This document shows positions 128 through 40,862 of a stretch of DNA of 40,862 bases, in pieces. The stretch comes from a virus. The stretch lies in the IMG/VR virus record IMGVR_UViG_3300044827_000011, positions 1-40,862 of that record; one strand, given 5' to 3'. Numbering within the stretch: position 1 is the stretch's first letter; each line of letters opens with the position of its first letter. A model generated the notes under the pieces. The model worked only from the letters and a program-made list of their open reading frames with translations. It had not been told where the DNA came from and ran no database searches. Both the position numbers and the translations under genes were made by a program.

Positions 128-153
128 TTGCCAATGACATTCTCGTTCATAAT
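1..153 (+). other. Intein, C-terminal splicing domain
   Basis: This is the continuation of the intein from 40862. Block F reads VWDLEIEEEHEFFANDI and block G is LVHN followed by Cys+1 of the extein. The terminal His-Asn pair and the +1 Cys nucleophile are intact, so splicing should work. The first codons of block F are also the last codons of the nested HNH frame. Confidence 0.9.
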
Positions 154-37700: not shown

Positions 37701-38075
37701 ATGAAAACCTGCTGTCATTGCAAAAAGATAGGAAATGATTTTATGGTCAGGACAACTACCAAATCTGGTATTTATTATATTTGTCATGATTGCCAGAATG
37801 ATAAGACTATAAAATATATGAGAACTGAACGAGGTAGAAGGAATGCAAGTTTGAATACAAAAAGGATGGTAAAAAAATATCATGATAAAAATCTATCAAG
37901 ACAAAAATTACAATATGCTGTGAGAGTTGGAAGTCTTTTAAGACCGAAAAGATGTGACCAATGTAAAAAAATTGGAAAGATAGGAGCACATCATAGGGAT
38001 TATAAACAACCTTTGGATGTTATGTGGCTTTGTCCTAGATGTCATAGCTTGATGCATAGGCAATTAAAAATATGA
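37701..38075 (+). CDS. HNH-type zinc endonuclease
   Basis: 124 aa from ATG 37701. It starts with a knuckle CCHCKK, followed by CHDC. The second zinc pair is RCDQCKK (Cys85, Cys88) with the catalytic AHHRDY (His97-His98), and WLCPRCHSLMHR completes the HNH (Cys111, Cys114, His119). A free-standing homing-type enzyme inserted in the sugar module. No Shine-Dalgarno; the AT-rich codon use differs from the neighbouring sugar genes, suggesting separate origin. It ends on ATGA with the next gene. Confidence 0.8.
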   Translation: MKTCCHCKKIGNDFMVRTTTKSGIYYICHDCQNDKTIKYMRTERGRRNASLNTKRMVKKYHDKNLSRQKLQYAVRVGSLLRPKRCDQCKKIGKIGAHHRDYKQPLDVMWLCPRCHSLMHRQLKI

Positions 38076-38722: not shown

Positions 38723-39716
38723 GGTTTTATTAACAGGCGCATCGGGTTTTTTCGGTTCGCATCTTCTGCGGCATCTTCTTGCCAAGACCGATTGGCAGTT
38801 TGTTTGCATAGCTTCATGGAAATATAAGGGTACTCCTGAAAGGATCGAGAACGCTTTGAAGGACATGGACAAGAGCCGAGTGGAAGTCATTACCCACGAT
38901 CTTGTTTCTCCTTTAACGTCGATGACGAAAAAGCGCTTGGGGAAAATAGACGATATCCTGAACATTGCGTCAAATTCCCATGTCGAGCGCTCGATTGACG
39001 AACCCGGAGAATTTATCATGGGCAATACGGCTTTGGCTTTCAACATGCTCGAACTGGCAAGGGAATTGAAACCGGAACTCTTTTTGCAGTTTTCTACTGA
39101 TGAGGTTTATGGCCCGGCGCCAATCGGTACCGATTTCAAAGAGTGGTCGCCCATTGTTCCTTCCAATCCCTATTCCGCGTCAAAAGCGTGTCAGGAAGCT
39201 ATTGCCATATCGTATTGGAGAACCTATGGCGTGCCGGTCATCATCACTAATACCATGAATCTTTTCGGGGAAACTCAAGACCCTGAAAAATATATCGCCC
39301 GTCTCATAAAGAAGATTTACAACGGAGAAAAGGTGACGGTTCACGGCAGAGAAGGACAAATCGGCTCGCGTTATTATCTCCATGCTAGGAACGCCGCCGA
39401 CGCTGTTCTGTATCTTTTGGATGAAGGGCCGCCATCGCACTATGCCGAAGGCGTTTGCGATAGGCCGGACCGTTTCAATATCGTCGGAGATGTGGAAGTG
39501 GATAACCTCGAATTGGCTAAATTGGTGGCCGATATGCTTGACAAGGAATTGGATTATGAGCTTGTCGATTTCCATTCTGCCAGGCCGGGGCATGATAGGC
39601 GGTATGCGCTCGATGGTACAAAGCTGAAGGCACTCGGTTGGATTGCGCCGGTTGAGTTCGAACCTTCGCTTAAAAAAACGATTGAGTGGACTCTTAAAAA
39701 TCCTCAATGGCTCTGA
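38715..39716 (+). CDS. NDP-sugar 4,6-dehydratase (extended SDR family)
   Basis: 333 aa from ATG 38715. NAD-binding GASGFFG at residues 8-14, the 4,6-dehydratase catalytic triad STDEVYG (Thr128, Asp129, Glu130), and Tyr153-x3-Lys157 in NPYSASK. NTMNLFGETQDPEKYIARL and REGQIGSRYYLHARNAADA follow as in this family. It would make a 4-keto-6-deoxy sugar for the neighbouring ColD-like enzyme. The nucleotide (dTDP, GDP or CDP) cannot be told from motifs alone. Confidence 0.85.
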   Translation: MTRVLLTGASGFFGSHLLRHLLAKTDWQFVCIASWKYKGTPERIENALKDMDKSRVEVITHDLVSPLTSMTKKRLGKIDDILNIASNSHVERSIDEPGEFIMGNTALAFNMLELARELKPELFLQFSTDEVYGPAPIGTDFKEWSPIVPSNPYSASKACQEAIAISYWRTYGVPVIITNTMNLFGETQDPEKYIARLIKKIYNGEKVTVHGREGQIGSRYYLHARNAADAVLYLLDEGPPSHYAEGVCDRPDRFNIVGDVEVDNLELAKLVADMLDKELDYELVDFHSARPGHDRRYALDGTKLKALGWIAPVEFEPSLKKTIEWTLKNPQWL

Positions 39717-40862
39717 AGTATTTAAAATACGGCGGAACTCTGACCAATGCCAAAGAGCGCCGCGCCATTATCAAGTCCGTTTATGAATGCTTATCGACCG
39801 GCCAATGGCAAGCCGGTAAACAAGCTAAACTATTCGAAGATGAACTGGCACAATATATTGGTACACGATTTTGTTGTCTCGCTAATTCCGGCAGCTCTGC
39901 TGGCTTACTCGCTCTTTGTTCGTTGGAATTACCGAAAGGGTCTGAAGTTATCATATCGGCTTGCACTTTCCCTACAATTTTTAACATTATCCTTAATTGC
40001 GGTCTGGTCCCTGTGGTCGTCGATGCCAAAATAGGGACGTATAATCTTGATGTAGATGAAGTCGAAAGGGCTATCGGTCCGAAGACCAAAGCGATTATAG
40101 CCATTCACATCCTGGGAAATCCCGTGGACATGGTGCGTTTAATGAAAGTAGCCAAAAAACATGATCTATATGTTATTGAAGATTGTTGTCTGGCCGAGGG
40201 GACTCTAGTCAAAACATCTAAAGGCAATCTTGCTATACAAGATATAAAAGTTGGTGATGAAGTTCTTACTCGTAAAGGTTATAGGAAAGTATTGAGGACA
40301 ATGTATAAGGGTGAAAAAGAAGTCATAACACGACTTGGAATTACAGCTACGCCGGATCATCTTTTTATAACTTCCGGCGGCGTCAAAAGGTTTGATTCTT
40401 TGAATCCATCTGATATACTATACAAATGGAACGAGAGACTATCGTCTATAGAGGAAAAAAGTACAACAGATTGCCAAAATCTCCAAGACGGCAAGCACGA
40501 GTCTATTATTGGAGGCACAGTTCCTATGAATCGCCTTTTCCGCTTCATAGACAGATTTGGATTGACAACAATGGGAAAATCCCTAAAGGAATGGTTGTTC
40601 ATCATAAAGACGAAAATCCTCTCAATAACCGATTGGATAATTTGGAACTTATGTCAAGAAGCGAACACGCCAGTTTACATACTTCACAGCCAAAACATAT
40701 TAGAATCGTCCTCAAAAATCTCAAATTGGCAAGAGAGGGTGCAAAAAAATGGCATGGCTCACCGGAGGGCAGAGCTTGGCACAGCAAGCATGGTCGGGAA
40801 GTCTGGGCCAATAGAAAGAAAAAAGGTTTGGGATCTAGAAATTGAGGAAGAACATGAATTTT
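39707..40862 (+). CDS. ColD/RfbH-like NDP-sugar 3-dehydratase (DegT/DnrJ/EryC1 family), N-terminal part with intein
   Basis: This is the 5' part of a gene that runs through the artificial end and continues at 1-837: 621 codons in all, 387 aa after intein removal. PLP-dependent DegT-fold enzymes act on nucleotide-4-ketosugars. The N-terminal extein (160 aa) has the family start, an SGSSAG-like phosphate-binding loop (NSGSSAGLLAL), a GNP turn and the conserved VIED aspartate that contacts the PLP ring. After splicing, the position of the usual Schiff-base lysine is His188, as in ColD and RfbH, which are dehydratases and not aminotransferases. ColD is also about 388 aa. The start ATG overlaps the upstream 4,6-dehydratase stop by 10 bp, consistent with a two-step deoxysugar pathway. 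The exact sugar is not readable from sequence. Confidence 0.85.
   Translation, partial: MALKYLKYGGTLTNAKERRAIIKSVYECLSTGQWQAGKQAKLFEDELAQYIGTRFCCLANSGSSAGLLALCSLELPKGSEVIISACTFPTIFNIILNCGLVPVVVDAKIGTYNLDVDEVERAIGPKTKAIIAIHILGNPVDMVRLMKVAKKHDLYVIEDCCLAEGTLVKTSKGNLAIQDIKVGDEVLTRKGYRKVLRTMYKGEKEVITRLGITATPDHLFITSGGVKRFDSLNPSDILYKWNERLSSIEEKSTTDCQNLQDGKHESIIGGTVPMNRLFRFIDRFGLTTMGKSLKEWLFIIKTKILSITDWIIWNLCQEANTPVYILHSQNILESSSKISNWQERVQKNGMAHRRAELGTASMVGKSGPIERKKVWDLEIEEEHEF
40392..40419 (+). promoter_or_regulatory. Candidate promoter for the nested HNH gene (leaderless geometry)
   Basis: -35 TTGATT (40392-40397), 16-bp spacer, extended -10 TGA-TATACT (40414-40419), then six bases and the ATG at 40426. 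The start of transcription would fall at or next to the start codon. This promoter lies within intein coding sequence. Confidence 0.5.
40426..40845 (+). CDS. HNH homing endonuclease nested out of frame inside the intein
   Basis: A 139-aa protein is encoded in a frame different from the intein that fully contains it. It shows a typical phage HNH_3-type core: IWIDNNGKIPKGMVVHHKDE with His59-His60, then NPLNNRLDNLELMSRSEH with Asn68 and His81. The basic tail SPEGRAWHSKHGREVWANR is common in free-standing phage HNH enzymes. Its frame has a TGA at 40411-40413, so it cannot be an in-frame extension of the N-intein. It ends in the codons of intein block F. It would cut intein-less alleles and drive homing. 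No Shine-Dalgarno is visible. A -10-like TATACT ends six bases before the ATG. Confidence 0.85.
   Translation: MERETIVYRGKKYNRLPKSPRRQARVYYWRHSSYESPFPLHRQIWIDNNGKIPKGMVVHHKDENPLNNRLDNLELMSRSEHASLHTSQPKHIRIVLKNLKLAREGAKKWHGSPEGRAWHSKHGREVWANRKKKGLGSRN
40736..40862. repeat. Right copy of the 127-bp terminal direct repeat
   Basis: Exact copy of bases 1-127. It lies inside the intein of the dehydratase gene and holds the 3' end of the nested HNH reading frame. Removing one copy closes the circle and keeps both frames intact. Confidence 0.95.

Follow-up and report, generated by a model that had tools for sequence, protein, structure and literature searches.

Phage inteins that appear to carry their HNH homing endonuclease as a separate gene in an alternative reading frame

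We identified a mobile intein, inserted in an aminotransferase gene of a circular phage contig, whose homing endonuclease is very likely a separate −1-frame gene within the intein coding sequence and not, as is normal for inteins, a domain of the intein polypeptide. The stretch analyzed, hereafter the window, comprises the whole 40,862 nucleotides of IMG/VR record IMGVR_UViG_3300044827_000011. On the basis of comparisons with related inteins, this two-genes-in-one layout looks like a widespread class of mobile element rather than a single oddity.

The nested gene is an ORF of 139 aa with an ATG start (40426 to 40845, plus strand) that matches the Pfam HNH_3 domain (PF13392; 3.7e-18) and sits entirely within the intein in the −1 frame; as a sequence-only reading of this DNA had noted, the intein frame is open throughout it. 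The surrounding ORF, one frame away, starts at 39707 and continues past the right end of the window. Self-search and comparison of the ends revealed an exact 127-bp terminal direct repeat, probably an assembler overlap, with a left copy at 1 to 127, which holds the same intein/HNH sequence, and a right copy at 40736 to 40862 (both plus strand), indicating a circular contig. When the ends are joined over this repeat, a single 621-aa ORF is obtained that consists of a DegT aminotransferase and a complete 234-aa intein, in the order N-extein (...YVIEDC), intein (CLAEGT...LVHN), and C-extein (CDSFSGA...), with the stop codon at 835 to 837. The N-extein (39707 to 40186, plus strand) corresponds to the N-terminal 160 aa of a DegT/DnrJ/EryC1-type aminotransferase, as indicated by its match to Pfam DegT_DnrJ_EryC1 (3.2e-44) and by intein-less homologs, and the C-extein, together with the stop, occupies 154 to 837 on the same strand. 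Intein-less homologs (L177 to L181), which display the empty insertion site VIED[CN]-CD, align with the closed DegT over its full length at 61 to 64% identity; hence, the joined ends and the reading frame can both be trusted, and the intein sits in frame, at a conserved position, within an otherwise intact host protein. At the DNA level, the window matched no known phage. The circular map also carries a sugar/glycosyltransferase cluster, and a second endonuclease-like gene with CxxC pairs (37701 to 38075, plus strand; phrog_2340, 1.2e-22), ~2.4 kb upstream of the nested HNH, is flanked by glycosyltransferase genes.

The splicing domains of the window copy are complete. The Hint-N half, with Cys1 and the block B motif TPDH, spans 40187 to 40420 (plus strand; HintN profile match, 6.3e-37) and is followed by an open linker that is antiphase to the HNH gene (40421 to 40807, plus strand), as delineated by frame and substitution analysis. 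Profile matches and the closed sequence place the first part of the Hint-C half, with block F VWDLEIEEEHEF, at 40808 to 40862, of which 38 nt (40808 to 40845) are shared with the HNH 3′ end; past the junction, the intein ends with ...ANDILVHN at 128 to 153 (both plus strand). The intein hallmarks, namely, Cys1, a block B TxxH, and a C-terminal His-Asn followed by Cys, Ser, or Thr, are all present (CLAEGT..., TPDH, and ...LVHN followed by C), and these columns are conserved across the family. An AlphaFold model of the intein frame of a relative inserted at the same site (L004) predicts a Hint fold, with pLDDT mostly 93 to 98 in the Hint halves and mostly 40 to 50 in the linker; among PDB structures, the gp41-1 intein is its best match, and the Mtu RecA intein is also among the top matches. 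Taken together, the intact motifs and the predicted fold suggest that the window intein is capable of protein splicing. The possibility that the intein-frame spacer constitutes a novel domain was rejected, as the spacer is disordered in the L004 model. The HNH frame of the window copy, on the other hand, is modeled with a pLDDT of 89.7, and its closest PDB structure is I-HmuI, albeit with a modest score (E = 0.036); a sequence search of the HNH against PDB gave no match.

A search with the HNH protein recovered two close relatives, one in a terminase large subunit (TerL; L003) and one in a different DegT (L004), in each of which the HNH lies within an intein whose frame is open, and the same nested layout occurs in the TerL genes of Tetrasphaera phage TJE1 and phage Highwayman. 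Profile searches then gave 160 rows, which were placed by using HMMs for Hint-N, Hint-C, and HNH; removal of copies with ≥95% DNA identity left 118 nonredundant inteins of this Hint family, including that of the window. An HNH is present in 116 of the 118 and is invariably at frame offset +2 (equivalent to −1) within an open intein frame; because the loci were collected with queries from this Hint family, this is a figure for the family and not for phage inteins overall. The sequence-only reading had held that related inteins with the HNH in frame would overturn it: there are none among these 116, and in-frame HNH inteins do occur in another lineage, that of the conventional intein of cyanophage CL131. 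The relatives of the latter give an offset of 0 (several of the matches being weak), which indicates that the pipeline can also detect other frames. The host genes are DegT and TerL, mostly phage terminases, and five bacterial genomes, including Bacteroides mediterraneensis strain Marseille-P2644T (from a genome contig search), carry the same layout in a TerL-like gene.

The two remaining family members (L110 and L143) are mini-inteins without an HNH. In the first (L110:4001-4429), the linker WHENLSSIAEKRIID by eye looks like the 5′ end of an HNH gene read in antiphase, the pattern that an in-frame loss of the HNH would leave behind. A TerL intein in a Pelotomaculum MAG (L169:4001-4720) has the same Hint and linker start with no detectable HNH and is possibly a decayed version of the nested form. 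In three loci (L155, L052, and L093), a single host ORF has two intein regions, and in L155, a LAGLIDADG domain and a nested-HNH intein occur in one host ORF.

To evaluate how often such an open frame would arise by chance, we kept the HNH amino acids fixed and resampled synonymous codons from the codon usage of each host gene. Under this null model, the probability that the intein frame of the window copy stays open across the 120-codon HNH core is 0.0007, in line with the roughly 0.1% estimated earlier from the sequence alone. A single open copy is weak evidence; the weight lies with the family, in which 116 of 116 intein frames are open against 6.8 expected, bearing out the claim that selection keeps this frame open. 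Although membership required an ORF spanning Hint-N to Hint-C, every Hint-N match qualified, such that this criterion excluded none. The other alternative frame averages 11.7 stops in the same analysis, which explains why nearly all survivors share one frame. HNH genes with no Hint-N match in their locus often contain stops in the corresponding frame (8, 6, 6, 3, and 9), though several have 0 or 1; at least two stop-free cases (L074 and L088) are apparently inteins cut by contig ends.

How the out-of-frame HNH is expressed can be approached from the signals at its 5′ end. A start codon lies near the HNH core in 105 of the 116 members and is ATG in 93 of them. Across the family, Shine-Dalgarno (SD) sequences of at least 5 nt are found at 34 HNH starts against 14.9 expected, and an extended −10 motif (TGnTANNNT) positioned 5 to 7 nt upstream of the start is found in 31 members against 9.2 expected; neither signal is present in 30 of the 105 members that have a start. 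Programmed −1 frameshifting that fuses Hint-N to the HNH, with no separate initiation, would be consistent with the −1 position of the HNH in all 116 members and with the A AAA AAA or similar sequences in a few of them. However, slippery heptamers at frame entry are not enriched in the family (11 against 8.8 expected) and are absent from the window copy, the stop density of the other frame already accounts for the constant frame, and a divergent TerL intein described below has its HNH in +1 instead. Furthermore, the HNH frame of the window copy has a stop (40411 to 40413) 15 nt ahead of its ATG. Given the start codons and the enrichment of SD and −10 signals but not of slippery sites, initiation of the HNH on its own is favored, and frameshifting appears improbable.

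The window HNH start has no SD, and only 3 of the 46 ORFs in the window have one; across contigs, SD use in general and SD use at the nested HNH start are not significantly linked (P = 0.065). Instead, the window copy reads TGATATACT-ATACAA-ATG, in which the extended −10-like motif TGATATACT (40411 to 40419, plus strand) ends 6 nt before the ATG and, in light of the family enrichment, may act as the promoter of a leaderless HNH transcript. Its TGA doubles as the stop codon that precedes the HNH in its own frame, and the motif in part overlaps codons for the conserved Hint motif SDxLY. We accordingly put forward leaderless initiation as a hypothesis for the window copy.

The frame on which selection acts was determined by counting substitutions by intein codon position in 24 independent pairs. 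At positions 1/2/3, the counts are 408/226/1140 in the exteins, 143/95/406 in Hint-N, and 19/11/76 in Hint-C, as expected of ordinary coding sequence in this frame. Across the HNH stretch, the counts change to 291/857/425, which correspond to HNH positions 2/3/1, such that HNH third positions dominate (phase switch relative to Hint-N, chi-square P of ~3e-72), with 0.39 changes per HNH third position, close to the 0.45 at extein third positions. The 24 pairs show no sign of amino acid selection on the intein frame within the HNH stretch except in the short Hint-C overlap, and this frame appears nearly free there save for stop avoidance. Selection preserves both a stop-free intein frame and a functional HNH in its own frame; the linker is passive, and the HNH is the selected protein. 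The region had earlier been read as true double coding, which holds for the 38-nt overlap of the HNH with Hint-C; frame-specific comparison of the homologous inteins finds constraint on the HNH frame but, for the rest of the linker, nothing beyond the avoidance of stops.

These patterns also bear on the view that the HNH is a relic and that the intein frame alone matters now, which we regard as marginally less credible than frameshifting. The window HNH lacks the C-terminal zinc ribbon present in its relatives and may on this account be weakened or decaying; likewise, mini-inteins exist, one of them (L110) with what appears to be a residue of the HNH 5′ end in antiphase. Against this, substitutions in the family are depleted at HNH codon positions 1 and 2 and not at the intein positions, pairs of the window copy and its relatives show the same phase bias, and the catalytic His/Asp/Asn residues of the HNH_3/I-HmuI-like motif are invariant, including in the window copy (H59, H60, D62, N68, N72, H81, and H85). 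An assembly or sequencing artefact, in the form of paired indels or a false contig-end junction, can be set aside: the intein does cross the contig ends at a probable assembler overlap, but the layout is repeated in 115 other nonredundant inteins, including those of sequenced phages, and in bacterial genomes, and the closed DegT aligns with its intein-less homologs over its whole length, which refutes the artefact at the class level and excludes the paired-indel error contemplated earlier.

The distribution of the family indicates mobility. The window intein and that of L004 share the DegT insertion site, with exteins only 24% identical and Hint halves 56% identical; the closest host proteins found for the window DegT (62 to 64% identity) carry no intein; and the Hint family occupies several sites in TerL. 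The presence of the family in both DegT and TerL, along with the existence of intein-less DegT homologs, renders lateral spread of the element well supported. The identities of the HNH and Hint parts are only moderately correlated (r = 0.37), which makes some exchange of modules between them likely. In the HNH tree, which is poorly resolved, nested and free HNHs interleave; a single origin is not supported by it, as one and several origins are indistinguishable at this resolution. A divergent TerL intein (L076:3649-4527; C...HN followed by S), a singleton with no relatives found in IMG/VR, has an open intein frame and an HNH positioned at +1 relative to it, which suggests a second origin of the out-of-frame layout.

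The arrangement can be compared with several known systems. The ShiLan domain and the Pacc40 insertion are out-of-frame HNHs in phage DNA methylases, for which the authors predict that the insertion remains in the host protein, infer homing, and report no detectable RBS (Arsenault, Gosselin, and Gogarten 2025; PMC11855218). As in ShiLan, the HNH here occupies an alternative frame, and the frame of the host gene is uninterrupted; unlike ShiLan, which has no splicing domains, the HNH is flanked by intact Hint halves that could allow excision, and the hosts are DegT and TerL rather than methylases, with over 100 members that all share a single frame. A further methylase case is mentioned in a genome note (PMC12613952), and the portions consulted of a mycobacteriophage intein survey (PMC5050341) do not mention an out-of-frame HNH layout. 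In the PMC literature, to which our survey was confined, only the ShiLan work treats out-of-frame HNH insertions in depth. Thus, the proposal that the arrangement is undescribed needs narrowing: an out-of-frame HNH has a precedent in ShiLan, and it is its combination with splicing domains that is apparently new within this literature. The dCTP deaminase of cyanophage vB_AphaS-CL131 has a conventional HNH intein, self-excision of which was shown by its authors (PMC6293099); it similarly has an HNH_3 endonuclease between Hint halves in a phage gene, but its HNH is in the intein frame, which is never the case here. With the group I intron endonuclease I-HmuI (PDB 1u3e), the window copy shares the HNH fold and the proposed condition of a separately translated endonuclease within a self-splicing element; the difference is that the intron is spliced at the RNA level, whereas in the present element, ribosomes making the host protein have to read through the endonuclease gene. 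A free-standing endonuclease accompanying split inteins in fractured genes was reportedly described by Dassa and colleagues in 2009. In that system, too, the endonuclease is encoded apart from the splicing domains, but the host gene is in two parts, whereas here, the host gene is a single unbroken ORF that overlaps the endonuclease gene.

The comparative data support the earlier proposal of a free-standing-type HNH gene lodged in a mini-intein linker, with the host translating its antiphase, and a mechanism can be conceived along the following lines. Ribosomes on the host gene would translate Hint-N, ~130 to 220 residues of meaningless antiphase HNH, and then Hint-C; judging from the intact motifs and the predicted fold, the Hint halves would fold together, the disordered linker would loop out, and the host protein would be spliced. 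Other ribosomes, as conservation and the start signals suggest, would initiate at the HNH start, with some members relying on an SD site and others, the window copy among them, probably on a −10/leaderless route, to yield a free HNH endonuclease. Site sharing, empty sites, and horizontal spread are consistent with this endonuclease cutting intein-less alleles, into which the whole element would be copied. The element would thereby be equivalent in its action to an intron-encoded homing endonuclease, except that splicing takes place in the protein and not in the RNA.

More broadly, we consider it probable that these elements represent a large unrecognized class of phage inteins in which the intein only splices, its linker being antiphase sequence, and the endonuclease is independently translated from an overlapping gene in a fixed alternative frame, by way of SD or promoter-coupled leaderless starts within the Hint-N coding sequence; such a class would have arisen at least twice, once as the −1 class and once as the +1 version in L076. 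The expression route of out-of-frame endonucleases, an open question, hereby becomes directly testable. For annotation, the finding means that long linkers in phage inteins can hide endonuclease genes, as in the TerL of the published Tetrasphaera phage TJE1. It also provides a sizeable natural collection of overlapping phage genes for which the logic of selection is known and suggests how a free-standing gene may colonize an intein without compatibility of their folds.
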